A DNA stretch of 64,000 nt, from NCBI GenBank assembly GCA_014239155.1, contig JAAZZQ010000060.1, positions 62,001-126,000 on the forward strand. Direction: 5' to 3'. Position 1 is the stretch's first letter. Every line of letters starts with the position of its first letter. Shown here piece after piece: positions 3,808 to 59,814 of the stretch. The notes beneath the pieces are model-generated. The model was not told the origin of the DNA. It ran no database searches and was given only the letters and a program-made list of their open reading frames with translations. A program made the position numbers and the translations under genes. The DNA comes from Lachnospiraceae bacterium (GTDB lineage Bacteria > Bacillota > Clostridia > Lachnospirales > Lachnospiraceae).

Positions 3808-4617
3808 ATGGATAGAACAGAACTCATCGAAAAAAGGAAAAGATTGGAAGAGAGCATTGCAGATGCGGACATGGTGCTTGTTGGGGTTGGCGAGGAATTT
3901 AATGAGAGCTTTGGAGATATCGGTAGCTTTCCGCATTTGATGTCCGCGTTGGAAGAGGTTGATATTGACCAGACATTAGAATGGACAGTGCCTTTTTTAG
4001 AGCATCGTTTTTTGATTGAGCATAACGAGGGCAGGCTGATTAGTGCCTATAGAAAACTGTATGAATTAATTCAGCAGAAAAACTATTTTGTAATTACTAC
4101 TTGTATTGATGAAAATATAAAAAAAGCGGCGTTTGATACAGGACGATTGGTAGAGCCTTGTGGAAATTATGAGAGATTTCAATGCAGTGAAAAGTGTTGC
4201 AATGAACTGTATCCTTCCAAAGACTTTTCCGATTTGGTTTATCAGGCGATTTTGGATAATGTGGGGTTGGATTCCCTCGAGATTCCAAGATGTCCAGTTT
4301 GCGGTAAGGCGCTGGCTTACAACAATATATTGTGTGAACAAAATTATGTGGAAGAGGGATACCAGAAACAGTGGGAGAAGTATACAAAATGGCTGCAAGG
4401 GACATTGAACAAAAAATTATGTATTCTTGAATTTGGTGTGGAGCTGAATCTACCCAATATTATTAGGTGGCCGTTTGAAAAAGTGGCATTTTATAATCAA
4501 AAGGCAAGTTTTTTTAGAGTGAATGAATCGCTGTATCAGATGGCAGAGAATCTGGGCGACAAAGGCGTTAGTATCGCTAGGAATGCAGTGGACTTTTTGC
4601 TGGAATGTAAGGAATAA
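3808..4617 (+). CDS. Sir2-like (sirtuin-related) protein
   Basis: N-terminal Rossmann-like MVLVGVGEEF, paired Cys motifs (CSEKC...CPVC) typical of the sirtuin zinc module, C-terminal LEFGVELNLPNIIRWPFE. Confidence 0.6.
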   Translation: MDRTELIEKRKRLEESIADADMVLVGVGEEFNESFGDIGSFPHLMSALEEVDIDQTLEWTVPFLEHRFLIEHNEGRLISAYRKLYELIQQKNYFVITTCIDENIKKAAFDTGRLVEPCGNYERFQCSEKCCNELYPSKDFSDLVYQAILDNVGLDSLEIPRCPVCGKALAYNNILCEQNYVEEGYQKQWEKYTKWLQGTLNKKLCILEFGVELNLPNIIRWPFEKVAFYNQKASFFRVNESLYQMAENLGDKGVSIARNAVDFLLECKE

Positions 4618-4636
4618 AACACGGAGGGGAATTGTC

Positions 4637-7012
4637 ATGAACTCAGAGGAAAGTTATCTGGACAGTTTGCTAAGGAATATTTTAAATCCTGAGGCAGCAG
4701 AACCCGGGAAAGAGGAGTCGCAGATTGCAGAAGAACGAACAGTGCAGGAACTAGAATTAAAGGAAACAGAGGCAGAAAAAACGGAAACTGTGACAGATAC
4801 TTCAGAAGGAACACTGATATCAGAAGGAATAGCTGATATTGCGGAGGAACCATTGATTTTAGAGGAAGAGACTGAGCTTTCTAAAGAAGCATATCGTTTG
4901 GAGGAGCCTCTCCTATCAGAAGAAGTATCAGAAATTCCAGAGGAAGCACAAATTCCAGAAGAAATACAACTATCGGAAGAGATATCAGAAATTCCAGAGG
5001 AAGCACAAATTCCAGAAGAAATACAATTATCGGAAGAGATATCAGAAATTCCAGAGGAAGCACAAATTCCAGAAGAAATACAACTATCGGAAGAGATATC
5101 AGAAATTCCAGAAGAAATACAACTATCGGAAGAGATATCGGAAATTCCAGAAGAACCTTTGTTGCAACTCCCAGAAGACATATTGGACGGTTTAGAGGAG
5201 CCATCAACTTCCGAGGACCTTCTGTTATCAGAAGAGATAAGCAGTGTTTCAGATCAACCATCAATTATGGATTTGACAACAGATTTTATAGATACAGAGG
5301 TTATTGAATCGGTAGAAAGCCCAACAGTTGAGGAGGAAACTTCAGAGATAACACAGCCCATAATAGAGGATGAGAATGAACTTGAGACAGAGCTGCCTGT
5401 TGTGGACTACTTTGGAACAGAAGAGATAGTGGCAATAAATGCCGAGGAAACAAATGCAGAAGAATCTGCCCTTGCGACAGTGGGGACATCGGATTCTGGA
5501 GGAGGATTTAGTTTGGAGGATAAAGAGATGCCGGAATCAGATGATGATTTTAAATTGGAGGATATTGAGATTCCTGAATTGTCCGATCTGGGAGTTTTTC
5601 AGGATAATGAACTGAACATAGATGCATTGGAAGATGCGATTCAGTCCGAGACAGAACGTGAGATGGCAGGCGAGCTAAATATTGATGATTTGACAATACC
5701 TATGTCGGATTTTAATCTATCAGACTTTGATATGGATGATTTGGAAATGAAAGAAACAGAAGTGTTAGATAACTCTGAGAAAGATTTGGATATTAAGATT
5801 CCCGATATTTCCGAGGATTCTAATATTGTCGGTAATAGTAATGAGAGTGATACTTCTATCAATATGGATGATAATTTGGAAGATGTACTCAATATGCTTG
5901 ATGATGACGCAGAGCTTGCAGAAATCAATGATATGCTTAAGAAGTCAGACAACAATGAGCCAATACAGGATGACATGATGGATTTGTTGAATCAGATGGC
6001 TGACGACGAAGCGGCGTCTGTCAATGCAGGACTCAATCATACAGATGAGGATGATGGTGGAGTGCCGCTTCCAGTAATCCCAAAGTCTGTGTTAGAGGAG
6101 ACACGATCAACAGAAAAGGCAGATGGTGACGAGAATAAAAAGACAAAGAAAGCATCTGCGAAAAAGAAAAAAAATGCCAAGGAAACGGAAGACGCGGAGG
6201 TAGAGACCAAAAAGGAACCCGGAAGGTTGGGTAAATTTTTCAATATGCTGACTGAGGATCTTGTGCCAGAGCCAACGGAGGAAGAGCTTGCAGCCGAGAA
6301 AGAAGCTAAAAAGGCAAAGAAGCAGGAAGAGCAGACTAAGAAGGAAGAAGAAAAACTTGCCAAAGACGAGGAAAAGAAGGCAAAAGCAGAGGAAAAAGCT
6401 GCTGCGAAAAAGGCGAAACAGGAAGAGGCTGCGAAAAAGAGACAAGAAAAGAAAGCCCAAAAAGAGGCAAAGAGAGCGAAACAGGCTGCAAATGGTTTAA
6501 ACAAGCGCATTCCTCCAAAGAAAATTGCGGTGGTTGCTGCATTTGGGGTTTCTGTAGGTGGAGCGGTGCTCGTTGCCACAAATGTGCTCTCAACACAAGG
6601 ATTTCTTCAAACAGCACGAAACGCATACTACAAACAAGATTATAAAACGGTGTATCAAGCTACTTATGGCATGGAACTTAACGGGAAAGAAACCGAGAGC
6701 TTAATCAAGGAGAAGAGCGAAATTATATATAAGATGCAGAGAAAGTATGACTCCTATCAAAATAATTTAAAGATGGGACGTGAACTCGAAGCACTCGATG
6801 CATTGCTTCAAGGGCTTGTGGTTTATGATACGATAAATGCAGATGCACAAGCGTATGAAGTGACAACAGAAGTAGATGAACTTAAAGCAACGATTTGCAA
6901 TATCCTTGAGACAAAATATCACTTGGATGAGACACAGGCAAGAACCTTGCTCAGCAATGAAGATCCGCTAACTTACACAATTGCATTAAATGATGTGATA
7001 ACACAGAGCTAA
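4637..7012 (+). CDS. Acidic repeat protein with Lys-rich segment and a single C-proximal TM helix, unknown function
   Basis: GGAGGGG RBS before ATG 4637; Glu-rich ~550 aa, Lys/Ala-rich coil, TM IAVVAAFGVSVGGAVLVATNVL, ~115-aa tail. Confidence 0.85.
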   Translation: MNSEESYLDSLLRNILNPEAAEPGKEESQIAEERTVQELELKETEAEKTETVTDTSEGTLISEGIADIAEEPLILEEETELSKEAYRLEEPLLSEEVSEIPEEAQIPEEIQLSEEISEIPEEAQIPEEIQLSEEISEIPEEAQIPEEIQLSEEISEIPEEIQLSEEISEIPEEPLLQLPEDILDGLEEPSTSEDLLLSEEISSVSDQPSIMDLTTDFIDTEVIESVESPTVEEETSEITQPIIEDENELETELPVVDYFGTEEIVAINAEETNAEESALATVGTSDSGGGFSLEDKEMPESDDDFKLEDIEIPELSDLGVFQDNELNIDALEDAIQSETEREMAGELNIDDLTIPMSDFNLSDFDMDDLEMKETEVLDNSEKDLDIKIPDISEDSNIVGNSNESDTSINMDDNLEDVLNMLDDDAELAEINDMLKKSDNNEPIQDDMMDLLNQMADDEAASVNAGLNHTDEDDGGVPLPVIPKSVLEETRSTEKADGDENKKTKKASAKKKKNAKETEDAEVETKKEPGRLGKFFNMLTEDLVPEPTEEELAAEKEAKKAKKQEEQTKKEEEKLAKDEEKKAKAEEKAAAKKAKQEEAAKKRQEKKAQKEAKRAKQAANGLNKRIPPKKIAVVAAFGVSVGGAVLVATNVLSTQGFLQTARNAYYKQDYKTVYQATYGMELNGKETESLIKEKSEIIYKMQRKYDSYQNNLKMGRELEALDALLQGLVVYDTINADAQAYEVTTEVDELKATICNILETKYHLDETQARTLLSNEDPLTYTIALNDVITQS
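4925..5134 (+). repeat. In-frame tandem repeat: 3 x 57 bp plus one 39-bp unit (ISEIPEEAQIPEEIQLSEE)
   Basis: Nearly identical DNA units inside the acidic region of the CDS. Confidence 0.95.
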
Positions 7013-9517: not shown

Positions 9518-9630
9518 GCAACAGTTTAGTCAGGTCAGCACATTGATTGTGCTGACCATATACGAGAGCAGTGGCTGCAGGCAGGGTTTTTGGAGGTCCT
9601 GTACACAAGTGAAGGCATCGGAACTGTTAT
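9518..9630 (+). repeat. Degenerate copy (F) of the AACAGTTCAG palindromic element family
   Basis: Starts GCAACAGTTTAGTCAGGT, perfect stem GGTCAGCACA/TGTGCTGACC, shared GTGGCTGCA.GCA segment, ends GGAACTGTTAT. Confidence 0.65.
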
Positions 9631-23243: not shown

Positions 23244-23380
23244 GTAACAGTTCAGCCTTTGGCTTCCTGTTACAAGCATCAAGCCGTGCATAATCGCTTC
23301 GCGATGGCTTGATGCATCTCAACTACTACGTTTTCCCACGGACTTTGCAGCGCAGTGCAAAGTCCTGTCTGAACTGTTAT
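23244..23380 (+). repeat. Palindromic intergenic element copy A (subfamily 1)
   Basis: TAACAGTTCAG...CTGAACTGTTA ends; inner stems GCATCAAGCC/GGCTTGATGC and GGACTTTGCA/TGCAAAGTCC. Confidence 0.9.
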
Positions 23381-23409
23381 AAACCAGAACATAATTTTTG
23401 TTATGCTTC

Positions 23410-23438
23410 TTGACATTTTTCGTGGTACATAGTATAGT
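23410..23438 (+). promoter_or_regulatory. Sigma-A promoter TTGACA-N17-TATAGT
   Basis: Hexamer match upstream of element B and the TrmB-type CDS. Confidence 0.8.
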
Positions 23439-23496
23439 GTTCCTGTTGAGAACTACTATTTGGTAAAGCCAATACAAAAAAATAGTTGTGTGGAAG

Positions 23497-23632
23497 GTAA
23501 CAGTTCAGACAGGTATTTGCACTGTGCTGCAAATACCGTAGGAAAGCGTGGTGGCTGCAAGCAAAAATTCATCGCCAAAGGCGATTTTTAATGGATTTTT
23601 GCAGTAACAGGTCAGCTTGTCTGAACTGTTAC
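23497..23632 (+). repeat. Palindromic intergenic element copy B (subfamily 2)
   Basis: Perfect 14-bp terminal inverted repeat GTAACAGTTCAGAC/GTCTGAACTGTTAC; inner stem GGTATTTGCA/TGCAAATACC. Confidence 0.92.
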
Positions 23633-27881: not shown

Positions 27882-28018
27882 GTTACAGTTCAGTCTAGGA
27901 CTTTGCATTTACTGCAAAGTCCGTAAAACGGTGTTGCGGTTGAGAAACATCAAGCCACCGCGAAGTGGTTTTGCATGGCTTGATGCACGTAACAGGAAGC
28001 CGAAGGCTGAACTGTTAC
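27882..28018 (-). repeat. Palindromic intergenic element copy C (subfamily 1, reverse of A)
   Basis: GTTACAGTTCAG...CTGAACTGTTAC; same inner stems as A. Confidence 0.9.
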
Positions 28019-28050
28019 TGTTAAATTGTTTTTACGATGGTTGTTTTTGT

Positions 28051-28084
28051 AAGAAATCGGGCAGGAAAACCTGCTCGATTTCTT
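28051..28084 (+). terminator. Hairpin AAGAAATCGGGCAGG-AAAA-CCTGCTCGATTTCTT
   Basis: 15-bp stem with one G.U pair. Confidence 0.75.
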
Positions 28085-28183
28085 ATGCATTTTTTGATAC
28101 GAAATACAAAGAGATTTTGCGGGTTCTATACATTTTTGGAGATTTAAGGAAACGGTTGTATATTTTTAAGGAGTGAATGAATT

Positions 28184-30611: not shown

Positions 30612-30766
30612 GTTATAGTTTAGTATAGGACTTTGCATTGATTGCAAAGTCCGTGAAACCGCATAGCAGTTGAGATGCATCAAGCCACCGAACGTGGCTT
30701 TGACGTTGTGAAGCGATGGTGCATGGCTTGATGTTTGTAACAGGAAGTCAAATGCTAAATTATTAC
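30612..30766 (-). repeat. Palindromic intergenic element copy D (subfamily 1, diverged, expanded central arm)
   Basis: GTTATAGTTTAG...CTAAATTATTAC ends; GGACTTTGCA/TGCAAAGTCC and GCATCAAGCC stems retained. Confidence 0.8.
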
Positions 30767-36465: not shown

Positions 36466-38610
36466 ATGTATCGGAGATTAAAAAATATTTTAGGGGTAAG
36501 TCTAATGATTTTGGCAGTTGTTATTTCTCAGGTTCCTATGCCAGATGCACAGGCGGAAGTGACACAGAAGATGTCAGAGACACAGACTGTAGAGGAAACG
36601 TTATTGGAAACAGCAACAGATTTGGCAGAAAATGCATCTGAGATATTGACGGGACTAGAGGAAAACGCAAAAACAATGTCAGCAGAAGCGGAAGAAAACT
36701 CAACAGCACCATCAGCAGAAGCGGAGGAAAGCCCAGCAGCACCATCAACAGAGCCAGAAGAAAGCTCAGTAGTACCGTCAACAGAACCAGAAGAAAGCTC
36801 AGTAGTACCGTCAACAGAACCAGAAGAAAGTTCAGTAGTACCATCAACAGAACCAGAGGAAAGTTCAGTAATACCATCAACAGAACCGGAGGAAAGTTCA
36901 GTAATATCATCATCAGAGATTGTAATTGATCCAGATCAGAAATATACAGTAACGTTTGTTACCGGAATTTTGGGGGTAAATGGTGAGAAAAGGGAGGTTC
37001 TTCACGGTCGAACAGTGTCTGAACTTGTGTCGGTAAATGGCAATCAGTCACAGATTTTGAGAAAAGGAATTTATCAGGTTGAGCAAGATGATGGAAAACA
37101 GGAGATTGTATATACATTTGCAGGTTGGTATCGGGATAATAACTATACTGCTGAATGGGATTTTGCCAACGATACTATCGAGCAGGATACAACAATCTAT
37201 GCAAAGTGGGATAGACAGACAAAAGCATATTTTTATGTGATCTATCGTGCAGCGGAAGGCAGTGAAAATGCTACTAATATACCAGAAAAACAAAAGTTGT
37301 ATGCAGACGATAAGTTAAAGAAGCCGACAAAGAAGCCCTCTTTAAAAAATAAAAATTTTAAAGGGTGGTATACAAACCCCTCAGATGCGAAATCGGAGTT
37401 TAAAGCATGGGGAAAGCCTCTGACAAAAGATATAACGCTTTATGCCCTTTTTGTAGAAAAGAGCAATACAGTGGTCTTCCATATGAATGGTGGTGGATTT
37501 ACAGGTAAATATAATGGAAAGTCCTACACAGATACAGCGAGCCTGACTGCAAAAATTACAACGGGAGAAAAAATTTCTTCCACAGATTATCCGGGAAGCG
37601 GTTCTACATCTAATTTTAAGTATTCTAACTTTTCAACGGATTCAAATTGGTATAAGGATAAGGAATGTCTTCAGGTATACGAACAAGATGCTAAGGTGAA
37701 GGGAGATCTTACATTATATAAGAAATGGTATTATACGTCATCTGGATTTACCATGAATGCAACAGGAGCTGTGTTGTACAAATACAGCGCATCTGTGGCA
37801 GATGTCAAAATACCAGATTCTGTTAAAATAATTGGAAATGATGCATTTACAAGCATGGGCAGCATTGCAAGTATTACATTGCCGGATAACATCTCCGAGG
37901 TTCAGGAAAATGCTTTTCGAGGAGTGAAGAATGTCTCAAAAGATATTACAATTACTGGAAAAACTGAAAGTGCCAAAAACATTGCAAAGAGATTGGCTAA
38001 TCAGTATACACGTTTTGTTTATAAGGAAAGCGATACAGATGACAGTGTCGTTGTAAGCCGGACGGCTTCTGGAAGTATTCAGCTTGGCGCGACAATTTCT
38101 GGCAGTAATCCAACTACACAGAATAACACAAAAAACAACACAACGACAGTAACATCGCCAACATCCACTATGCCATCAATATCTGCGCCGCGGTCAGAAG
38201 TAACAGTACCTTCGACGCAGATATCGCAGCCAGAAGTGACAATACCGCCAACATCTATACCACAACCGGGAGTGACAACACAACCAACATCATCAACGTC
38301 TGTACCACAGCCAATGTCTACAACACAGTCATCATCAGGACCGCAGTCTGTGAGAAGCAATATAACATCGTCCTCGCAGCAGAGTACTTCTGATTCTTTT
38401 GTATCTGCGGACCAAAGTGTGGGGACGACACAAAAAACAAAGATTGCGGCTGCAAACGCACCAAAAAGCACAGCGCATATCAAAGATTCCACGCCGAAGA
38501 CAGGAGACCCAGTACAGTATCGTATGCTTATTGTATGTGCAATGTTTTCAGTGGGAGCATTGCTTGTTCTTACCGGGAACGGAAGAAGGAAGAAATCTTC
38601 TGCATTTTAG
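36466..38610 (+). CDS. Sortase-anchored surface protein: repeats, InlB-type beta-grasp repeats, LRR_5-like unit
   Basis: Signal peptide; YTFAGWYRDNNYTAEWDF, FKGWYTNPSD; C-terminal TPKTGDP + hydrophobic segment + RRKK. Confidence 0.88.
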   Translation: MYRRLKNILGVSLMILAVVISQVPMPDAQAEVTQKMSETQTVEETLLETATDLAENASEILTGLEENAKTMSAEAEENSTAPSAEAEESPAAPSTEPEESSVVPSTEPEESSVVPSTEPEESSVVPSTEPEESSVIPSTEPEESSVISSSEIVIDPDQKYTVTFVTGILGVNGEKREVLHGRTVSELVSVNGNQSQILRKGIYQVEQDDGKQEIVYTFAGWYRDNNYTAEWDFANDTIEQDTTIYAKWDRQTKAYFYVIYRAAEGSENATNIPEKQKLYADDKLKKPTKKPSLKNKNFKGWYTNPSDAKSEFKAWGKPLTKDITLYALFVEKSNTVVFHMNGGGFTGKYNGKSYTDTASLTAKITTGEKISSTDYPGSGSTSNFKYSNFSTDSNWYKDKECLQVYEQDAKVKGDLTLYKKWYYTSSGFTMNATGAVLYKYSASVADVKIPDSVKIIGNDAFTSMGSIASITLPDNISEVQENAFRGVKNVSKDITITGKTESAKNIAKRLANQYTRFVYKESDTDDSVVVSRTASGSIQLGATISGSNPTTQNNTKNNTTTVTSPTSTMPSISAPRSEVTVPSTQISQPEVTIPPTSIPQPGVTTQPTSSTSVPQPMSTTQSSSGPQSVRSNITSSSQQSTSDSFVSADQSVGTTQKTKIAAANAPKSTAHIKDSTPKTGDPVQYRMLIVCAMFSVGALLVLTGNGRRKKSSAF
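36742..36906 (+). repeat. 33-bp in-frame tandem repeat, 5 units (PSTEPEESSVV)
   Basis: Near-identical units; two degenerate PSAEAEE units immediately upstream. Confidence 0.93.
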
Positions 38611-40530: not shown

Positions 40531-40770
40531 AGACCAGAATAAAACCACCAATTAAGCATTTATGCAGATTTGATGGTTTTTTCTGTCTAACGAAAATTAC
40601 ACATTTTTGACAAAATACGAATTGAAGATTTATCAGATAATTCATTGAATATTTAGAAAAAATATATTATAATAGTAAATAATGTACTTCTATTATAAAT
40701 AAGTGTAAGGGTGTTTGGCATAAAGTGGAGTATTTGTGCAAAGCACCAAAGGATAAGGGGGATTTCAAAT

Positions 40771-43700
40771 ATGAGGTCAACTAAGATTGGACGAAAGATA
40801 TTGGCAGGTGTATTGTGTGCTGTTATGGTATTTCAGTGTGTGCCTGCAGAGGCAGTGGCAAGTGAAGTCGCAGAGACAGTACAATCCTATGAGCATGAGC
40901 AGTCGGACACAATAGAATCTCAGAAAGAAAATCAGGAAACAAACAGTTTAGATTCATTAGAATCAGAAGACGCACAGGTGATATCAGAGACAGATATAGA
41001 GGAAACATCAGAAGTGACCGAAAAGTCAGATGTGCTAGAATCATCAGAATTATTTGAGGATATAAATGCTGCTGATACATCACCGACACAGAAGGAAGAG
41101 AGCACGACTGAAGAAACGTTGTTTACAACTGAGGAGATGAGCACAACAGAAGTATCGTCGGCTGCCGAGGAGTCCAGCGTGATAGAAACTTTGCCGACAG
41201 CGGAAGAATCAGAAGTGGCAGAGACATCAGAACTGTCGGAAATGCCAGACACAGAAGAGACTGTTGAGCTAGAGACAGACATGACAGAAACAGGAACGAC
41301 TGATATAGAGGAGGAGACGGCGGAACAGGCGGTGACAGCGCTTGCAGATGAATTGCCGGATTATAAAAAATTACTTTCTGTTGTCTCAGAAAAAAAATAC
41401 TATTATTATGAAAAAGCAAAAGATATTTTTGTAAAATTAGAAGGGTGTGAAATACCAGATACAATAAATATTGAGTTTTATATTGACGAAGAGGATAACA
41501 ATAAAGGACAAAAAGTCAATGGTGAAAAAGATGGAGATTATTATAGAATTTCCTTACAAGGAATGGATGTTTTGACAGGGACACATACATTGACGGTTAA
41601 ATTAATAGATCCGACGGCACCAGACGCTATTTCTGAATTGGTAAGCAGAAAACTTGAGTTTACAATAGAAGAAGCAAATGTATTTACGGAAGCAGAAAAA
41701 TATTTTATTTCTGCAACGGATGACACAATTGAAGTAGCACTTTTTAATCCAGATGATAATATTACATCCGTTCAGATTACTGCACCAAATGGTGATATTG
41801 TTGCACGCTCCAACCAGAAAAGCCCAGCTGTACCTCAAAGAGAAGATCCTCGTTATACAGGCATTGGAAATGGGTATGAGTATAAAGAAGATATTTTATA
41901 TAAAACAACGTGGATTCTTCCTACAGAGAAAAATGCGCTTGAAGTTGGCAACTATGATGTTCGATTGACACTTGATAGCGGTTCGGATATGCTTCTTGGC
42001 AATGTTGTGGAGGTCTCTTCAAAGGCAGTTGTTACAAAGTGTACACTGGGTATGGATTACGATAATACAAGTAATTTTGTGTATTTGTATATTCAGGGAA
42101 CAGGTTTTAATCCTTCCCAGGTACGTTTTGATTTTGAGGACGAGGCGACATCAGCCATTTTATCTACCACAAGAATTGATTATAAAACTGTGCAGTCTGG
42201 ATTTATTGTGAAGTTCCGAAAGGAAGGAAATTGGGAGAAGGCAGGAAATAAAATTAAGGTAACGATCTCTAAAAAGTCTGGAAATATTAATTTTACGCAA
42301 ACTGAGTTTGAGGCGTTGCTAGAGAGTGGTATCTACTATGCAGAGTATAGTAATGTATTGAATGCTGTGGAAGTTGGTGTTACAACAGACTTAAATGGAA
42401 AAGCGGTAAAGTTTAGTATTGTTAATGAAAAAGGTGATAATCCTTCATTTGAATCAGATGTTACAACAAGATCGTTGACAGAAAGCTTGGTCTATCTTAC
42501 ACCTAATAAGGCTTTAGACAGGGGGCGTTATTATGTGAAGTTAAAGGAAACAGGAGGAAATACATATTATAAAGAATTTACTGTGAGTCAGGCAACAGCA
42601 GTCAAAAGCCATTGGGATGCGCCTGCGGTAATCTCAAAGAATGCAGAAAGACATGATTTTTATTACTTTGATACAGAAGCTGGAATCAGCAATGATACAT
42701 TGAAGGCATCAATAGATGGATATAGTGGAGAAGTAGCAGTCTACGCAAGTGAGTGGCAGCGAGAGGATGATGTAAAGGGTACACGTATTCAGCTATGGAT
42801 TCCTACACAAAAGTTGGAATTTGGTTCTCATACAGTAAGAATTACTAGAGATGGCAACGCGTATACATCTCACACATTTGAGGTGATTGCATCTGATTAT
42901 AAAAAATTTGTTCTTGACACCTATGCGCTTTCTTGGATTGATGATAAGACCATACAGGTTTATATAAAGACACCAAACTGCGCAGAGACAGATGATTTTA
43001 ATGTTAAATTGACAGAAGTTGACGGTGGAGAAGTGACAGGCATCAGTGCAGTAGTAACAGAGAGATACACGGATAGCGTTTTTATGAATATTACTGGATT
43101 GGACAGAAGTAAGGCGTTTAAAGATTACAATGTGCTGATAACACATAAAGAATTAGATCAACCATATAAAATGTCCAATTTAAACGAAAAGTATTATACG
43201 GATGAGGTCAATGGTGATAAGACATCTATTTCTTCTAATAAAGGTTTGCCTGTATTGGCAAACAATCGGGTAATTGGTATTAATATTCAGAATCTGGCAC
43301 TGCCTGCAACCTTGACAATCTATGCGACAGAAAATACAGAGGTAATTGATAGGATTACCATTCCCTCTACAACAGAGGGTAATTATTATTATTTTACCAA
43401 AGAATTTTATGACAGTCTGGAAAAGAAAGATCGATTGTATGATATGACTGTCACAGATTTTGGTGAGAATTGGGGAAGATCTTATGCAAGAATCAATCTT
43501 GGTTACAAAGAAGAAGAAACAATAAATGACTTTGATTTACAGATTATTAGTGATACATTGTATGTTGATGGCGCAGAGAGCGGAAAATCAACTGTTATTA
43601 TTGTATCAGGCAATCAGCAGAAACCAGTGTTTGAAGTTTCGGATGATGAGGTCGTGGAGTTGGAGGAATATATAGAGACTTCCGAGGAAACTGGAACACA

Positions 43701-46700
43701 GACAACAGATCCGAACAAGAGACGAGTGATTGCCAAAAATACAGGAACAACATTTATTACAGTTATTGCGGATGGCGTGAAAAAGAGTGTATTTGTCACA
43801 GTTACAAGAAATACATCTGGCATTACGATCAATACTTCAGATCGACATATGAGGGTTGGGGATTCTTTTGAGGCAGAGGCATTTATTCAACCATCAAGCG
43901 CAGAGGACCCGACACAAATTGTAAACTTTATATCATCAGATAACAATGTGTTGTATGTGAAGAAATTAACAAATAGGACGGCAAGAGTTACGGCATTGAA
44001 GTCTGGAACAGCAGTGCTGCGAGCTACATTGGAAGGAACTCCCTATACTGTAGCAGTGACAATCTCTATTACAAATTCTTTTCCTTTATATGATAAAAAA
44101 GAAATTAAGATTAAAGAAGTAGGGACTGTCAGCTACATTGAGAATGTTGATCGAGCATTGTCTTACTGCAAGTTACCCAAAGGATGGGAGTGGAACAATG
44201 ATGATCTTATCTTAACGGCAAGTGACGAGCTGCAATATTGCTGGGCAACCTATACAGAAGAGGGGTATCAGCCATTTTCTGCAAGACTGCCAGTGGCAGC
44301 TACGCGTATTGTCGGTATTGATGTAACGGGCAAAAAGCTGATTAATCAAGGACAGAAGGAAACCTATCAGATTACCTATCAGTATATAGGAGCAGATATT
44401 AATACTCCTAAGTTCCGGGAACGGCTCACTACGAATTGTGTCAGAACATCAGAGGGAAATATTGCAGCAGTAGAATCTTTAGAGTGGAATGAGCTTGTGA
44501 TTGCTGCAATGGAAAAAACTAGCGGTGGAACGGCAGATTTCTCACTGACATTAGCAATTGATCAAGGAACAAGTCAGGAACTTGATTTGTTTGTAAAAGA
44601 TTTTAGTGTTGATGTTCCTCTGACAGATTGCGTAAACAATGTAAAAGTGAAGCCTATAAAGATAGGCAACCAGAACTTTACATATACAGAAGCAGAAGAT
44701 CGAATGGAAGTTGATCAAAAAGATGTTCGAGATGCAAAGAATAAATATGCGATTAAGCTTCAGGCAGAGGCAACGATTAATGGAAAGCCAGCACCAAATA
44801 TGAAATTTGACTGGGAATCAAACGATACGACTGTGGCAACTGTTGCAATAAATGAGAGTAATGAAGTGATTCTCACTGTGAAAAAGGAGGGCAGTGTAGA
44901 AATTACGGCGAAGGCGAAGGATCAGGGAGAGTGCACAGGCACATTGACAGTGAATATTATGGATTATGCACCAATCCTTGAAGTATCAAGTATAACTATT
45001 AACAAGTATTATACTCAAGGAACAGAATTTGCTTTACAGCAACAGAATGGAAATAAAATTACTTCTGTAAATGTGTTGGAAAAGGATGGAGAGGAAGACA
45101 GAAACTCATCAAACTTTTCTGTAAGTGCACCGACAGAAGGGATTTCTACTTTAAATATAAAGCCAAATGCACCAGTATTATCCGCTTCAAGAAAAACTGT
45201 TTCAAAGTGCAAGCTAGAAGTTATTACAGAAAAAGGAAAATATCCATATTCGTTGAATGTGACCACCGATGTTACCAAGCCTTCTGTAACATTAAAATTA
45301 AAAACAAAGGCCAATCTGTTTTATAAGGATGCAGAAGCTGTTTATACAATTTCTAGCAAATATAATATTCAGTCTATAGAAATTCCAGAAGCAAATGGTA
45401 TTGGCTTTGATGGAAGTTATCATCGCAGTAATAACACGATAACTTTTCGAGCAAAAGGGCTTGATAGTAATACATTAGGTCAATTTTCTCCAAAGTCACC
45501 AAATGTGAAGGTACAGTTAAATATTGCCTTTGCAGGCTATACCTATAAGCAGCCGATAGAACTTAATATTGCAACCGAGAATAAAAAACCATCATTAAGT
45601 TTGACGGGAATGGTGATTTGCCCGGGGATTTCATCAGGTGTGGTTAATGTAATTAATTCAAAGACAAAGGAGCAGGTTCTGTTAGATAATGCAATGACAT
45701 TTGCAGTTACAAAACCACTTAATAGTGGTATTAGTACAACGATTAACAGGAATGGCAGCATTGCTGTAAAGTATCTTGGTACTAAAAATGTATCTTATAC
45801 TACAGAACTAAAAAGTTCTAATTGGACACAGCCAGTTAATGCAAAGGGAAAAATTACCTATGTAACATCTCCCGATAAGTTGTCATTGTCGCTTGGGAGT
45901 AAACAATTGACATTGAATATGGCTACAAACATCAAGGCAAATGGTACAAATACAATTCCCATTTCTGTAAACGGAAGTGATATTGGAATAACAAAGCTAA
46001 CTTATGGAGGCTCAGCGGCAAAACTGATTGATATAGATGAATATCTTGTGTGTGATTATCGGCCTACAAGCCAGGGAATTAAGAGTATTAGTCTGGGATT
46101 GAAGGAGGGGAAGCGCGGAACGGTCAAGGCGGGAACTTACAAGCTGGATTTGTATGCAACTGTAAATCTATTAAATCAGGAGATTACAATTAAGAAAGCA
46201 ACATTGACAATCAAGCTTACAGAGGCAGATAAAGCAAAGGTAACACTTGCATCACCCAAGGGAAAGATCAACCTAATAGACAGGGAAAATACATCTGTGG
46301 TGTATACACCAAAGGTTTCTGGAATTGATTCTGCTATAAGAAGTGTGAGCGTAGTAGGAGATAATGCGGAGTATTTTTCCGCTTCTCTAAATGCTGACAA
46401 GAAAGTGGAAGTGAAGATTAAGACTGGAAAGGGCATGTCCTCTAAGCAATCATATTCTGTTCAAATTCAGTCTGTGTTACAGAATGACTACAAGATTTTG
46501 TCCTCAGTGAAAATCAAACCTGTCAACACACTGCCAAAGATTGTATTTACTCCTGCAAAATGTAATTTGTATCGAAGTAATTCGAACAAGTATACAACTT
46601 CTATATCACTGAAAAACAACAGTATCGATATAGATAATATTACAGGGATTAAGATTGACCCAAGCAATAAAAATAATGCGAACAACTTTTTGTTGGTCAA

Positions 46701-46857
46701 TAATATTGGTAAGAATGGCACGGTAAGTTTTAGTTTGGCAGGTGACAGAACTAAGATTAAGAAAGGTCAATATAAAGTAAAATGTTTGGTTTCGTTCCGC
46801 GATGCAGATCCTGAGGCAAAGCCAGCTACGGTGACAATGACAATCACTGTAAAATAA
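40771..46857 (+). CDS. Giant secreted protein (~2000 aa) with Ser/Thr/Glu-rich N-terminus and Ig-like (BIG_2) domains
   Basis: Signal peptide MRSTKIGRKILAGVLCAVMVFQCVPAEAVA; BIG_2-type segments near 43810-44070 and 44800-44960; no C-terminal sorting signal. Confidence 0.88.
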   Translation: MRSTKIGRKILAGVLCAVMVFQCVPAEAVASEVAETVQSYEHEQSDTIESQKENQETNSLDSLESEDAQVISETDIEETSEVTEKSDVLESSELFEDINAADTSPTQKEESTTEETLFTTEEMSTTEVSSAAEESSVIETLPTAEESEVAETSELSEMPDTEETVELETDMTETGTTDIEEETAEQAVTALADELPDYKKLLSVVSEKKYYYYEKAKDIFVKLEGCEIPDTINIEFYIDEEDNNKGQKVNGEKDGDYYRISLQGMDVLTGTHTLTVKLIDPTAPDAISELVSRKLEFTIEEANVFTEAEKYFISATDDTIEVALFNPDDNITSVQITAPNGDIVARSNQKSPAVPQREDPRYTGIGNGYEYKEDILYKTTWILPTEKNALEVGNYDVRLTLDSGSDMLLGNVVEVSSKAVVTKCTLGMDYDNTSNFVYLYIQGTGFNPSQVRFDFEDEATSAILSTTRIDYKTVQSGFIVKFRKEGNWEKAGNKIKVTISKKSGNINFTQTEFEALLESGIYYAEYSNVLNAVEVGVTTDLNGKAVKFSIVNEKGDNPSFESDVTTRSLTESLVYLTPNKALDRGRYYVKLKETGGNTYYKEFTVSQATAVKSHWDAPAVISKNAERHDFYYFDTEAGISNDTLKASIDGYSGEVAVYASEWQREDDVKGTRIQLWIPTQKLEFGSHTVRITRDGNAYTSHTFEVIASDYKKFVLDTYALSWIDDKTIQVYIKTPNCAETDDFNVKLTEVDGGEVTGISAVVTERYTDSVFMNITGLDRSKAFKDYNVLITHKELDQPYKMSNLNEKYYTDEVNGDKTSISSNKGLPVLANNRVIGINIQNLALPATLTIYATENTEVIDRITIPSTTEGNYYYFTKEFYDSLEKKDRLYDMTVTDFGENWGRSYARINLGYKEEETINDFDLQIISDTLYVDGAESGKSTVIIVSGNQQKPVFEVSDDEVVELEEYIETSEETGTQTTDPNKRRVIAKNTGTTFITVIADGVKKSVFVTVTRNTSGITINTSDRHMRVGDSFEAEAFIQPSSAEDPTQIVNFISSDNNVLYVKKLTNRTARVTALKSGTAVLRATLEGTPYTVAVTISITNSFPLYDKKEIKIKEVGTVSYIENVDRALSYCKLPKGWEWNNDDLILTASDELQYCWATYTEEGYQPFSARLPVAATRIVGIDVTGKKLINQGQKETYQITYQYIGADINTPKFRERLTTNCVRTSEGNIAAVESLEWNELVIAAMEKTSGGTADFSLTLAIDQGTSQELDLFVKDFSVDVPLTDCVNNVKVKPIKIGNQNFTYTEAEDRMEVDQKDVRDAKNKYAIKLQAEATINGKPAPNMKFDWESNDTTVATVAINESNEVILTVKKEGSVEITAKAKDQGECTGTLTVNIMDYAPILEVSSITINKYYTQGTEFALQQQNGNKITSVNVLEKDGEEDRNSSNFSVSAPTEGISTLNIKPNAPVLSASRKTVSKCKLEVITEKGKYPYSLNVTTDVTKPSVTLKLKTKANLFYKDAEAVYTISSKYNIQSIEIPEANGIGFDGSYHRSNNTITFRAKGLDSNTLGQFSPKSPNVKVQLNIAFAGYTYKQPIELNIATENKKPSLSLTGMVICPGISSGVVNVINSKTKEQVLLDNAMTFAVTKPLNSGISTTINRNGSIAVKYLGTKNVSYTTELKSSNWTQPVNAKGKITYVTSPDKLSLSLGSKQLTLNMATNIKANGTNTIPISVNGSDIGITKLTYGGSAAKLIDIDEYLVCDYRPTSQGIKSISLGLKEGKRGTVKAGTYKLDLYATVNLLNQEITIKKATLTIKLTEADKAKVTLASPKGKINLIDRENTSVVYTPKVSGIDSAIRSVSVVGDNAEYFSASLNADKKVEVKIKTGKGMSSKQSYSVQIQSVLQNDYKILSSVKIKPVNTLPKIVFTPAKCNLYRSNSNKYTTSISLKNNSIDIDNITGIKIDPSNKNNANNFLLVNNIGKNGTVSFSLAGDRTKIKKGQYKVKCLVSFRDADPEAKPATVTMTITVK

Positions 46858-49328: not shown

Positions 49329-49509
49329 AAATGGCTTATAAGAAATGCCTGTGAAATATATTAAGACTTGCAGGAATTAATAAAAACATGAGATGTATTG
49401 AAACGTTTACTGTAAAATATATAGTAAGATTGGAGGCATAAATTGTATGTATAGATAGATGATATTGTCAATAAAAGGGAGTATAAATAACAAAGTGGGG
49501 AGAAACAAT

Positions 49510-52500
49510 ATGGCAAAGAGTAAAAAGAAAAAGAACTTTAAGCTAAGAAGGAGAGTAAAACGAACAATCGCAGCACTCACAATGGTTATGGCGATTGTTG
49601 TGGCTGCAATACCAGTTGAGAACTATGGTACAATGCAGGCATCAGGAGTGGAGGATGGTGTTGATTTAAAAAGTGAGGCAGATAATTATTTCAATGATCC
49701 GAATAAACCAACTTATAAAACGGATGATAAGGAAAGCGTCTACCAAGGTGATATAGAAATTGCTCAGCATATTGAGGGGGATGTTTTTATTGACGCATAT
49801 AGAATTCAGTTAAAAACGAATAACTCTGAAGATGCGATGATTAAGGAAAGTGTATTTAAGAAAGACTTGGATAAGTTTGATATATACGATGTGGAGTATT
49901 ATGGTTATATTCAGATGGATGCTGATTATATAAAAGCAGTAGAAAATACATTTGATGGTGAAACTTATTCTATCACATATGATAAAGATTCTAAAAGTTA
50001 TAGTGCAATAAATACCACGATAACAGATGCATCTGGACAGAACATCACTTTAAATTTAAGTGCTGTTAATTTTGATTTGATAAAAACAGATTCACCGAAA
50101 GAGACAATTACAAATTCGCCAACAGGTACTTTGCGGGGGACATTAAATGGGAATCCGTATGATACAATAAAGTCTTCTGCTAGCAATTCAAAAATCTTTG
50201 AAAATTATGCCCCAGAGGTACTAAAGTCTCATACAGACAAAATTGATGATTACAATAAAGAGATGCAAAAATACATAGAGGTGCTAGAAGAAATAAAAGC
50301 AAAATCCACAACAGATCTTACGCAGGATGACGAAAGAAGGTGGAATGATTCTGTAACAGCAATTTCTGCTTTGCAAAGTACAGGACAGGGATTGTTGAAT
50401 TTAACAAAAACTTTTGCAGAAATTCGGGCAGAGGCGAAGGATACAGATGAGGATGAAAATGATCTTCCAGATATTGTAGATTATGCAATTTGTCAAAGGC
50501 TTGAATCAAGTAATAACACAGGAGACCTTGTTAAATATGGATTAATTAAATTAATAAATCAGAAGGATGCTGTTGTATATGTTCCTAAAAATAATAGTCC
50601 AAATGGTCCTGATTCTAATCAAGTGAATGATGAGGATGGTTATCTTGCCAAAGGAAAGGCAAATATAAAGGGGATTGCTTCCAATGCGTTTGATATAGAA
50701 AATAAGCCTCCAGAAACAAACAGAGAAGTAGGAACTATCACAATTCCAGATACAGTAGAATTTATTGGTGTGAGGGCGTTTGCTAATTCTAAATTTTTGA
50801 AGGATGTAACTTTGGATGATACAAATTGTACTATTTTAGCTGATGAAGCATTTATGCAATGTCCTAATCTTGCATCTATCAAGTTTACAAGTGCCAATTC
50901 TCGTTTGGAGACGATTGGATGTAAGGCCTTTTATAATACAAAGTTAGACAATATAATATTTCCGCCTTACGTCAAGATAATTGGCGCAGGTTGTCTATAT
51001 CTTTCTGATATACGGGAAATGACAATGGGAGGTCTTAGGAATGATGAGCTTGTAATTGAGCCATATGCATTTTTTGGCTGCGAAAAATTGGCTAAGGTAA
51101 ATTTTGCAGGAGAAAGTACAAACTTTAAGATGGGAGATGGCATCTTTGCTTTGGCAGCAGACCAAGGTGGTGGAGCACTTGAAACATTTACATTCCCATC
51201 CTATATGAACCAGATAAATTATGGCGAAGATTATTCAAATTATATTTTGGCTGGCAGGGAAAATCTTAAGACAGTAGTTCTCCCTGGAAGACTTGGCAAC
51301 AGTGTTCCAAATGAAGAGGAAAGGAATGTGCCTGATACAACATTTGCAGGCTGTAAGAATCTGGAGTGTGTGGAATTTCCGGATGGGGCTTACGATGCAG
51401 TGTATACGCCAGAGAAACTTTTTGCAGGGGTATTGAACGATAAGTTCTATGTGAGAGGTCCCGAGTCAGGCGCTAGTAGCGGTTCTATTGCTTCTCCTAG
51501 AAGATGTACATGGAATGCAGTGCCCGGGTATTTTATGGAAGATGGCAAGCCAGGCGTTGTACCATATGTATATATGGGGGCTGATGGTAAAGAGCATATG
51601 GAAATTGGTGTTGGTGAAGAAAGCCGCGATGATTATATTGCAACCATTGATATTATTGATGCAAATGCAAAGACAGCTAGTTTGTCAGGTTATACAGAAA
51701 ATCATCCAACAGGATTTCCGCTTGCCGTGGTAGTTCCAGCAACAGTTGGCGGCTATACAATTATAGAGATTGCGGATGGGTGTTTTAAAGACGTAAAGGA
51801 TATTATATATAAAGTAGTAATTGCAGATGGAACCGTGCAGAGAATCAACGCGAATGCATTTCGGGACTGTGCGAAACTGCAGTGGGTGGAACTTGGGGAT
51901 TCTGTAAGTTTTATTGGTGCAAATGCATTTGAGGGATGCAAGAGTCTTGAGAATGTGCTTTTTAGCCAAACACAGACAGCACTTTTTGGAGATGAGGATA
52001 CTTATTGGAAAGATGCGCTTACAATTGAGACAAATGCATTTAAAACGGGTTCAGACTTCCTTACCTTTCATGGTGCTGTGCACCCAGAGTATGCGCCGTT
52101 TAAACTAGCAATGAGTGAGGATAGCAAGTCTATGACAGGTTCTAGTCTTCAGATTTGTTATAAGACAGATGCGCCGACAAATCTTACAATACTGCGAGAC
52201 AATGATACTGGCGAAAGCACATTGATTGACTATCCACATTATGAGGAAATTGACACCATCAATAAAGATCTGATTCAAATGTGGGCAAATGGTGATAGTG
52301 GATACAGTATTACAGATAAGTTCGAGGAGTGGAGTGAACTAAGAAATGCTGCGGACCCCAACTATGCAGACAGACCCTATAATCAATATAAAAATTTTAG
52401 TGAGGAAGATATTCCGCTCTACACTCTTTTTATGACAATACCAAAAGGTATTGACAGCATTGATGCAAACGCATACTATAATAATTCTAAAAATGCAAGC

Positions 52501-55146
52501 GATCTGGCATATTTAACAAGAAAATATGTATCCCAGACCAAAATGAGCAATGGCAAAGAGATTGAGATTGGCATTCAGGGCGAGACTGGTGCTTTAGAGA
52601 GAAATATTAACCAAAAACAAAGTTATAGCAGATATAATGATGTGAAGAGTGTATATTCTGATGATAAGTATATTTCAGAGAGTGATTTGGATGAATTTGG
52701 TCAGAAAGCAGGTCTGTTTAGTGGATTTTTGGCAGAGTCTGAGCTTAGCACCAATATTACTAGAATTACCGATGATATACCGGGTATTATTTGGCGCACT
52801 TACGATGGACATGAATATGTTGAAAACTCAATTGTTGGAAATGACTATTTGACAACAATTGACTTAAAAACAATAAAGGAACTTCCAGACTATGCATTTA
52901 TGAGCTGTGAGAATCTTCTAAAAACTTCTTATGGCACAGAAATGCAGAAGATTGGTGCATTGCCATACAGGAATTGTAAGAGTTTGACACAGATTGATAT
53001 TCCTGCCGGAAATCAATATGTACAGTTTGGCAATATGATTCTTTTCCGCAAAAATCAAGGCTCAGGGAATGGACTTGGGATTATTCAATGCCTAGAAGGG
53101 CGAGGAAGCGGAAGTGGCGCGAGTGGTTCCTTTAAAGTAGGAGAGGAATCAGGAGATACGCTGTTAGCAAATGTTGTCAGCATTGACAATGAGGCATTCT
53201 CTTACTGTGATCAAATCACAGAGGTTGATCTGAGTACCTCTGCGATCACACAAATACCGGAGAGATGTTTCTACAAAGCAGAGAAACTAGGAACTGTGAA
53301 ACTTCCTGAAAGCATTGAGACCATTGGCGCGGAAGCATTCTTGGATACCAGTGATAATATGGAAATTACTATACCAAATCCAAGTTGTGCGATTGGAGAG
53401 ACAGCGTTTAACTTTGATGGAAACCGTAAGGTTACGATTAGAGGACCACAGTTTGATGCCTCTGGAACAAGAAATAGTGCAATCTATAATTTTTATCTAA
53501 AGATGAAGGATAAGCTGAAAGCACAAGGCAAAGAAGAGAATATAATCTTTGCATCAGAGGATAAACATAAAGTAACCTTTATTGATTATGATACCTCTTT
53601 GATTGTTGATCCAAATGTTCAAAATCCGCAGTATGTTGATCATGAGGGAAATGCAATCTGTGTGGCAAAGCCAGAGCGCTCAGGATATGAATTTTCTGCA
53701 TGGAAATGTATTCTGTCAGATGGTACACAGTTTACAGGCTCAGGCGATCCTTGGTTAAATGTCACAGAAGACAGAATTATTCAGGCAGTGTATAAGCCAA
53801 ACGCAAATATTGTTGTGCCAGATGGCAATGACTATACATTGACAATTAAAGGCGGTACTGCAAATGGCAAAACAGAATCTATTACAGCAAAGGGTGGAGA
53901 TAAGATACTTGTGGTTGCAGACACCAAGACAGATGGAAGTAAGTTCCAGTACTGGACTGTTGAGCCGTCAGCACATACAAATTTGCTTGTTGATGGAGTA
54001 ACTACAGCAAATACGACCTTTATTATGCCAAACGAAAATGTGACACTGACAGCAAATTTCAGTGGTGGTAATGGTGGAAATAACCCGGGCGGTGATAAAC
54101 CGGGTGGAAATACTCCAGGTGGTGATACTCCGGGTGGAAATAAACCAGGTGAAGATGGTAAAAAATACAAAGTAACCGTAAATTATGGCTCAGGAAGTGG
54201 TGAGTATGCAGCAGGTGCTACTGTTAATATTTCTGCATATGCACCAGATTCACCCAATAGAGTATTTTCAAAGTGGACGACAAGCAACTCTGGATTGAGC
54301 TTTGTAAATGCAAACTCTGCAACAACGAGTTTTGTAATGCCATCTGCAGATGTGACTGTGACGGCAAATTACAAGGTGCGGTCCGATGATGATGACGATG
54401 ATGACGATGGGCCATCAAGGAGACCAGGAACCAATACAAGTACAACCACTGTACCAAATAGACCAGGCAGCAGTTCGACAGGTACTACAGGAACGACAGG
54501 CACTGTGACAAACCCTACTTCTGGAAGCAGTAATACAGGAAACACAGGCAGCACTGCCAACAATAATGGAAATAAGATTTATATTACAAAGAATGGTGTA
54601 TCCAATAAAGATGTGGCATCCATTTCTGTAGATGGTTCTACGGATAACTTTATTGTGAGAATTACAGAGTCAGCGGAGGCTACTGCAGCGGTTGAGGAAG
54701 CACTGATCAATAAATATGGTTCGCTTGACGGATTGGTGTATTTCCCAATGGATATTTCATTGTATGATTCTACAGGACAGAATAAGATTACAGATACTTA
54801 TGGATTAAATATTACAGTGACAATGCCAATACCAGATGTATTGATTCAGTATGGCGGAAATTCACGGGTGGCGGCAGCCGACAATGGAAACTTACAACAG
54901 TTGACACCAAGATTTACAACAATTGACGGAATCGCATGTATTTCGTTTGTACCACCACACTTTTCACCGTATGTGATTTATGTGGACACAAGCAATCTAA
55001 CCGCAGGACAGACACTGGATTCGACACCTTCTACAGGCGATCCAATTCATCCTAAGTGGTTTGCGGCGATTGGAATGGCATGTATTTCAATCTTATTGTT
55101 TGTTACAAGCGATGGGCGCAAGCGTAAGAACTACAAGGCAGCATAG
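49510..55146 (+). CDS. Giant BspA-like leucine-rich-repeat surface protein with sortase signal
   Basis: LRR_5 repeats, InlB-like and Flg_new-type repeats, PGGN/DDDDDDDD/TGTTGT linker, C-terminal TPSTGDP + TM + RKRKNYKAA. Confidence 0.92.
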   Translation: MAKSKKKKNFKLRRRVKRTIAALTMVMAIVVAAIPVENYGTMQASGVEDGVDLKSEADNYFNDPNKPTYKTDDKESVYQGDIEIAQHIEGDVFIDAYRIQLKTNNSEDAMIKESVFKKDLDKFDIYDVEYYGYIQMDADYIKAVENTFDGETYSITYDKDSKSYSAINTTITDASGQNITLNLSAVNFDLIKTDSPKETITNSPTGTLRGTLNGNPYDTIKSSASNSKIFENYAPEVLKSHTDKIDDYNKEMQKYIEVLEEIKAKSTTDLTQDDERRWNDSVTAISALQSTGQGLLNLTKTFAEIRAEAKDTDEDENDLPDIVDYAICQRLESSNNTGDLVKYGLIKLINQKDAVVYVPKNNSPNGPDSNQVNDEDGYLAKGKANIKGIASNAFDIENKPPETNREVGTITIPDTVEFIGVRAFANSKFLKDVTLDDTNCTILADEAFMQCPNLASIKFTSANSRLETIGCKAFYNTKLDNIIFPPYVKIIGAGCLYLSDIREMTMGGLRNDELVIEPYAFFGCEKLAKVNFAGESTNFKMGDGIFALAADQGGGALETFTFPSYMNQINYGEDYSNYILAGRENLKTVVLPGRLGNSVPNEEERNVPDTTFAGCKNLECVEFPDGAYDAVYTPEKLFAGVLNDKFYVRGPESGASSGSIASPRRCTWNAVPGYFMEDGKPGVVPYVYMGADGKEHMEIGVGEESRDDYIATIDIIDANAKTASLSGYTENHPTGFPLAVVVPATVGGYTIIEIADGCFKDVKDIIYKVVIADGTVQRINANAFRDCAKLQWVELGDSVSFIGANAFEGCKSLENVLFSQTQTALFGDEDTYWKDALTIETNAFKTGSDFLTFHGAVHPEYAPFKLAMSEDSKSMTGSSLQICYKTDAPTNLTILRDNDTGESTLIDYPHYEEIDTINKDLIQMWANGDSGYSITDKFEEWSELRNAADPNYADRPYNQYKNFSEEDIPLYTLFMTIPKGIDSIDANAYYNNSKNASDLAYLTRKYVSQTKMSNGKEIEIGIQGETGALERNINQKQSYSRYNDVKSVYSDDKYISESDLDEFGQKAGLFSGFLAESELSTNITRITDDIPGIIWRTYDGHEYVENSIVGNDYLTTIDLKTIKELPDYAFMSCENLLKTSYGTEMQKIGALPYRNCKSLTQIDIPAGNQYVQFGNMILFRKNQGSGNGLGIIQCLEGRGSGSGASGSFKVGEESGDTLLANVVSIDNEAFSYCDQITEVDLSTSAITQIPERCFYKAEKLGTVKLPESIETIGAEAFLDTSDNMEITIPNPSCAIGETAFNFDGNRKVTIRGPQFDASGTRNSAIYNFYLKMKDKLKAQGKEENIIFASEDKHKVTFIDYDTSLIVDPNVQNPQYVDHEGNAICVAKPERSGYEFSAWKCILSDGTQFTGSGDPWLNVTEDRIIQAVYKPNANIVVPDGNDYTLTIKGGTANGKTESITAKGGDKILVVADTKTDGSKFQYWTVEPSAHTNLLVDGVTTANTTFIMPNENVTLTANFSGGNGGNNPGGDKPGGNTPGGDTPGGNKPGEDGKKYKVTVNYGSGSGEYAAGATVNISAYAPDSPNRVFSKWTTSNSGLSFVNANSATTSFVMPSADVTVTANYKVRSDDDDDDDDGPSRRPGTNTSTTTVPNRPGSSSTGTTGTTGTVTNPTSGSSNTGNTGSTANNNGNKIYITKNGVSNKDVASISVDGSTDNFIVRITESAEATAAVEEALINKYGSLDGLVYFPMDISLYDSTGQNKITDTYGLNITVTMPIPDVLIQYGGNSRVAAADNGNLQQLTPRFTTIDGIACISFVPPHFSPYVIYVDTSNLTAGQTLDSTPSTGDPIHPKWFAAIGMACISILLFVTSDGRKRKNYKAA

Positions 55147-59610: not shown

Positions 59611-59745
59611 GTAACAGTTCAGACAAGCTGACCTGTTACTGCAAAAATCCATTAAAAATCGCCTTTGGCGATGGGATTTTTGCTCTCAAGCTTTATGTTT
59701 TCGCACGGTCAGCGCAGTAAATGCGCAGACCTGTCCGAACTGCTA
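59611..59745 (-). repeat. Palindromic intergenic element copy E (subfamily 2, reverse of B)
   Basis: GTAACAGTTCAGACAAGCTGACCTGTTACTGCAAAAATCC shared with the reverse complement of B; ends GTCCGAACTGCTAT. Confidence 0.92.
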
Positions 59746-59814
59746 TAATACAGAAAGCAATGTTTTTCAGGCACAGGGATTTCGGAAGCCTACATGTATG
59801 TTAAGGAGGGGAAA

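Follow-up and report, generated by a model that had tools for sequence, protein, structure and literature searches.

The window, i.e. the whole stretch of 64,000 nucleotides that was analysed, carries six copies, A to F, of a short palindromic element (Table 1). All six had been located by eye in the preliminary description, and sequence comparison places them at the same coordinates except for copy E, which is one base longer and ends at 59746 instead of 59745. With at most two mismatches allowed, the window contains the end motif of the element 16 times, versus 4.8 times expected in shuffled sequences. Copy C is inserted between the stop codon of a formate/nitrite transporter gene and the terminator of that gene, which is conserved in relatives devoid of copy C. 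This terminator, a strong one (28048-28087), is now parted from the stop codon by the insertion.

Elsewhere in the window, two regions (36466-38610 and 49459-55146) encode large surface-type proteins that combine BspA-type leucine-rich repeats with Listeria-Bacteroides or InlB B-repeat domains, and a 2048-aa protein (40711-46857) has one Big_2 domain as its sole Pfam match. Tandem repeats whose copies are spaced 18-57 bp apart are found at 4857-5176, within an ORF of 829 aa (4523-7012).

Table 1. Copies of the element in the window, parts of copy C and IS66 elements of Lachnospiraceae
Feature	Length (bp)	Position	Strand	Ends, arms or flanks
MITE copy A	137	23244-23380	-	flanking duplication AAACCAGA, 8/8
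MITE copy B	136	23497-23632	+	flanks TGTGGAAG / TACGGAAG, 6/8
MITE copy C	137	27882-28018	+	flanks TGTTAAAC / TGTTAAAT, 7/8
Left terminal inverted repeat, copy C		27882-27893	+	from the sequence and alignment A2
Arm 1 hairpin, copy C		27898-27922	+	GGACTTTGCA / TGCAAAGTCC
Arm 2 hairpin, copy C		27948-27985	+	CATCAAGCC / GGCTTGATG, with an inner hairpin inside
Right-end hairpin, copy C		27989-28018	+	GTAACAG...CTGTTAC; right terminal inverted repeat in the last 12 nt (3' side)
MITE copy D, older	155	30612-30766	+	duplication 5/8; site empty in relatives
MITE copy E	136	59611-59746	-	flanks AATACAGC / AATACAGA, 7/8
MITE copy F, decayed	113	9518-9630	+	flanks 3/8, duplication unsupported
IS66 element L109	2251			ends GTTACTGTTCAC; duplication GCTGCTTT, 8/8
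IS66 element L131	2358			ends GTTACTGTTCAC / GTTACTGTTCAGAC; duplication GCCGGAAT, 8/8
IS66 element L138	1984			ends GTTACAGTTCAC; duplication GTATTAGA, 8/8
IS66 element L123	2323			ends GTTACTTTTCAC; duplication TATCAATA, 8/8

Ends, target duplications and empty sites

The ends of the element are fixed (GTWACAGTTCAG...CTGAACTGTTAC) and, as in MITEs, they form terminal inverted repeats, here of 12 bp across an alignment of 47 copies. In a first cross-genome set of 165 distinct insertions, the identity between the two flanks reaches 79% at 8 bp, whereas for lengths of 5-7 or 9-11 bp it is about 30-40%. A duplication matching at 7 or more of its 8 positions borders 111 of these 165 insertions, whereas shuffling the flanks among copies gives an expectation of 1.0; occasionally, the duplication is of 9 bp rather than 8 bp. 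Some elements are nested, i.e. inserted inside or beside other elements with duplications of their own (L065, and L048 with ACTGTTAC).

Comparison of occupied with empty sites gives the same picture. Site D is empty in relatives: L270, L276 and L273 align straight through it if the element is taken out together with 8 bp, the right-hand junction being confirmed by another relative, L269. At site C, the element is absent from two relatives (L268 and L269). Genome G016 (record L267) shares about 99% identity with the window's genome at the locus compared, and would be suited to a fine-scale comparison of insertion polymorphism.

All but two of the 165 matches measure 92-175 bp, which is too short for a transposase gene. 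The family is a MITE of about 137 bp, i.e. a non-autonomous DDE transposon without genes of its own. The proposal of a "MITE/REP-like element" thus stands for its first half, given the IS66-type ends and the 8-bp target duplication, whereas the REP-like half is unsupported because a target duplication is present. REP, REP/RAYT and IS200/IS605-type elements are not known to make any. Palindromic elements derived from IS200/IS605 do resemble the present one by their hairpin ends and replication-linked orientation, and an element of REP/RAYT or IS200/IS605 type (PATE), moved by an HUH transposase, could account for a palindromic, intergenic repeat of high copy number with a hairpin at one end and an orientation that follows replication. 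However, 8-bp duplications are the rule here and the ends are true inverted repeats common to IS66; this reading, counted out because of the duplications, is extremely improbable.

Copy number and distribution

When searched at the DNA level, the window's genome has 42 matches to copy C and 43 to copy B. The existence of further copies, expected if the six are part of a dispersed family, was borne out by R1, a covariance model based on 47 copies: together with flank comparison, it reveals at least 73 distinct insertions in this genome, and more in related Lachnospiraceae. Across many genomes, distinct insertions amount to 165 in the first set and 239 in total, all these copy numbers being lower bounds. 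Within the genus to which the window's genome belongs, 31 of the 38 genomes have matches to the model, which also detects the element in 7 other genera of Lachnospiraceae. Scanning named genomes for an exact 30-mer of the right end led to matches in Lachnospiraceae bacterium COE1, IMSAGC_011, Mediterraneibacter agrestimuris, Hominisplanchenecus murintestinalis and many gut MAGs. The hosts of the family are Lachnospiraceae from the gut of mice and other animals. Phage and plasmid collections yielded zero matches, and viral contigs two exact matches only. The viral-contig records L264 and L265, which carry the right end of the element, may be host DNA or prophage.

Relationship with IS66

Intact IS66 elements from Lachnospiraceae have nearly identical 12-bp ends, GTTAC[T/A]GTTCA[C/G], and 8-bp duplications (Table 1); four other records (L133, L134, L136 and L137) have IS66-type ends and flanks that do not match. 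Pfam domain PF03050 was confirmed in the transposases of L109, L123, L131 and L137, and in the fragment left in L118. The ends of the MITE subfamily L066 (GTTACTGTTCAGAC / GTTACTGTTCAC) are those of L131 over 12-14 nt on both sides (12/12). In the same way, L118, a deleted IS66 copy of 441 bp whose flanks do not match (3/8), has ends (GTAACAGTTCAGTCT / GTAACAGTTCAGCCTTT) that are the exact starts of the left and right MITE ends, the main MITE subfamilies matching them at 12/12. Between these main subfamilies and intact IS66, about 9-11 of the 12 end bases are shared and 1-3 differ. The search of genomes of the genus and family did not reveal any intact IS66 in which both ends are exactly GTAACAGTTCAG, and a DNA search with L118 for its intact parent found no intact copy. 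Identity between the MITE and IS66 is confined to about the first 12-17 nt.

Within the genus, IS66 genes were detected in 18 of the 31 genomes that bear the MITE versus 0 of the 7 that are free of it (two-sided p = 0.009). A cognate transposase in the same genome is usual for an active MITE, without being strictly defining. The window's own assembly (G000) has no IS66 gene (PF03050), and yet near-identical MITE copies imply recent movement; repeated IS copies may have remained unassembled in this draft, or IS66 may have been lost. Another candidate partner, IS256, was rejected: the genome holds only two remnants, both without the ends of the element.

Published IS66 elements make 8-bp duplications and have GTAA ends (PMC11946415). 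ISDge4, from the ISBst12 group, has the end GTAACTGCTCAGCA and an 8-bp duplication, and its transposition was seen (PMC12898284). The present element shares with IS66 elements having such ISBst12-like ends both the sequence GTAAC[T/A]G[C/T]TCAG and the duplication length, but differs from them by its size of about 137 bp, its lack of any gene, its internal hairpin arms and a hairpin found at the right end only.

The match of ends and duplication length with IS66, the ends of L066 and L118, the co-occurrence with IS66 genes and the published features of IS66 are the reasons for which the element is filed as an IS66-type MITE. It would very probably be a non-autonomous element moved in trans by an IS66-family DDE transposase; this high confidence concerns the identity of the element and does not extend to the inferred origin of its arms. 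We infer the mobilisation step from the shared ends and duplications, an IS66-family transposase being the likely mobiliser. No earlier description of an IS66-derived MITE was found in the literature searched.

Anatomy and subfamilies

From left to right, a 12-nt end is followed by the 10 bp of arm 1. About 25 nt of linker separate this arm from arm 2, which has an outer stem of 9-10 bp and an inner stem of 5-6 bp, and last comes the right-end hairpin. This latter, GTAACAG...CTGTTAC, results from an inner inverted copy of the terminal 7 nt, found in 205 of 232 elements; at the left end, such a copy is found in 9 of 232, versus 12 for a shuffled motif control. Whole arms are replaced between subfamilies.

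The size ranges from 68 bp to 314 bp. The mini-element of 68 bp (L004:1717-1784), which adjoins a full-length copy, retains the left end, arm 1 and the right hairpin, lacks arm 2 and has a perfect duplication (8/8). The version of 314 bp (L038:501-814) has a large extra insert in arm 1 and a full or near-full duplication. This insert contains several further hairpins and, by eye, resembles an IS605-type palindromic end.

Stem pairing and its possible causes

In the 47 copies, 97.5% of stem cells are paired and 18 of 30 pairs show at least one two-sided change; 0 of 500 shuffles reach these values, and slid controls pair only 28-35%. The stems do change sequence while staying paired, as first noticed on six copies. 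This had been taken as a sign of selection on a folded RNA or DNA, of which the conserved pairing stands, but repair of DNA palindromes yields the same pattern.

Many of the two-sided changes are blocks that differ between subfamilies without G.U intermediates (A-U to U-A, C-G to A-U). Furthermore, one loop is fully inverted (GCACAG in L020:2449-2602 versus CTGTGC elsewhere). Template switching is known to homogenise the arms of inverted repeats and to invert their spacers (PMC8604942). Because block replacement and loop inversion point to such repair, covariation alone does not prove an RNA function. These same features would fit arms kept paired by mutation alone, through template switching between inverted repeats and without any selection on structure. 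This is quite conceivable, though somewhat short of probable, since just one clear six-base loop inversion was found and since an excess of G.U pairs and an asymmetry of folding would be left unexplained.

These two observations, which amount to a moderate strand asymmetry, come from 116 representatives, whose shared ancestry makes the corresponding p-values optimistic: the arms contain 69 G.U versus 39 A.C, and the fold of the element strand is more stable than that of the complement in 82 of 116, with a mean gain of 2.5-4.6 kcal/mol. Single-copy changes include nearly as many A.C (7) as G.U (9). Single-copy changes are half as frequent in stems as in unpaired positions (0.0059 versus 0.0123 per site, p = 0.0015, a value that is also optimistic as copies share ancestry), and of the 33 changes found in stems, 11 are offset by a compensating one.

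Selection could also act on DNA hairpins, if a cruciform or single-strand hairpin were needed or helpful for transposition at the replication fork. The leading-strand orientation bias described below, the nearly universal and one-sided right-end hairpin, and the pairing retained across subfamilies with unrelated stem sequences are consistent with this. However, the arms are not strictly required, because the elements of 68 bp and 314 bp carry full or near-full duplications, and the G.U-over-A.C strand asymmetry would not be explained; selection of this kind is possible but rather unlikely.

Orientation with respect to genes and replication

The element lies a median of 21 nt past the upstream stop codon and, in gaps between co-directional genes, is found in sense orientation 68 times and in antisense 25 times (p = 9e-6). 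Its strand also agrees with the regional GC skew in 115 of 157 cases (skew taken 1.5-8 kb away; p = 5e-9). In a regression, the coefficient is 1.0 for skew (bootstrap 95% 0.28 to 5.5) and 0.32 for local gene strand (-4.2 to 1.04). Where the neighbouring genes diverge or converge, 24 of 35 elements have the orientation of the region; at the few sites where skew and genes conflict, it follows genes in 3 of 9. Because of the skew agreement, the regression and the divergent or convergent sites, replication is a better-supported cause of the orientation bias than local transcription, and the sense orientation loses weight as proof of an RNA function. With just 9 conflict sites, transcription may nevertheless play a part. 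A comparable bias in other IS families was attributed to the sliding clamp (reviewed in PMC5371812).

This bears on the idea of a mobile structured RNA, i.e. a MITE in form whose arm-1-first strand, once transcribed, would be a selected fold in 3' untranslated regions (acting on stability, processing or termination) that keeps copies in place. The sense excess after stop codons, the G.U excess, the better folding of the element strand, the low frequency of stem singletons and their compensation argue for it. However, orientation tracks the skew rather than gene strand, G.U and A.C are nearly balanced among single-copy changes, a perfect duplication borders the 68-bp element, which lacks arm 2, and compensated changes are also produced by palindrome repair. 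Moreover, an Rfam scan of the element gave no match at the gathering threshold (best E 0.58, for a miRNA family far below its cut-off). From this idea, the conserved pairing is retained, but palindrome repair explains the pattern and replication the orientation better than transcription does, which makes it improbable. Doubtful, too, and a little more so, is a replication-oriented MITE family whose transcript would be a selected, rapidly remodelled folded RNA, with wholesale stem replacement within a constant three-hairpin architecture and with 3'-UTR copies acting as portable RNA-processing or stability modules.

Comparison with other repeats

REP/BIME, ERIC, Correia/NEMIS and RUP are intergenic palindromic repeats that, like the present element, can be transcribed and fold, but their ends, duplication lengths and IS partners differ from those of the element. 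Among MITEs, MITEPsy1 derives from ISPsy2, makes a duplication of 4 bp and has been demonstrated to move in laboratory experiments (PMC3189936). The present element shares with it, and with MITEAba12 (PMC6382973), a short size, the absence of genes, terminal inverted repeats, a target duplication and a related IS thought to mobilise it. It differs from both by its IS66-type ends and its many structural subfamilies with covarying stems, and it is known from sequence alone.

Proposed mechanism and significance

An IS66 transposase of about 570 aa, whose gene is preceded by a small ORF, would recognise the ends of roughly 12 bp, GTWAC[A/T]GTTCA[G/C], and insert the element at AT-rich intergenic sites with an 8-bp stagger. 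This insertion would be tied to the replication fork, leading to the leading-strand orientation bias. The internal arms would be DNA palindromes formed and kept paired mainly by template switching during replication (arm homogenisation, loop inversion), although selection may also favour pairing, either in the DNA or in the transcript. Owing to the right-end hairpin, which may belong to the structure recognised by the transposase, the two ends of the element are not alike.

The element is an abundant and recently mobile IS66-type MITE, unusual by its conserved hairpin architecture, rather than a new class of element or of mobile RNA. A very common repeat of gut Lachnospiraceae, found in the genus of strain COE1 and in others, is now assigned to a transposon family. 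It should be emphasized that covariance-model matches in such elements can mimic new non-coding RNAs. Two questions could be addressed with this family as a natural experiment. One is whether there is a coupling between IS66-type transposition and the replication fork; the other is whether covariation in palindromic repeats comes from RNA selection or from DNA template switching.
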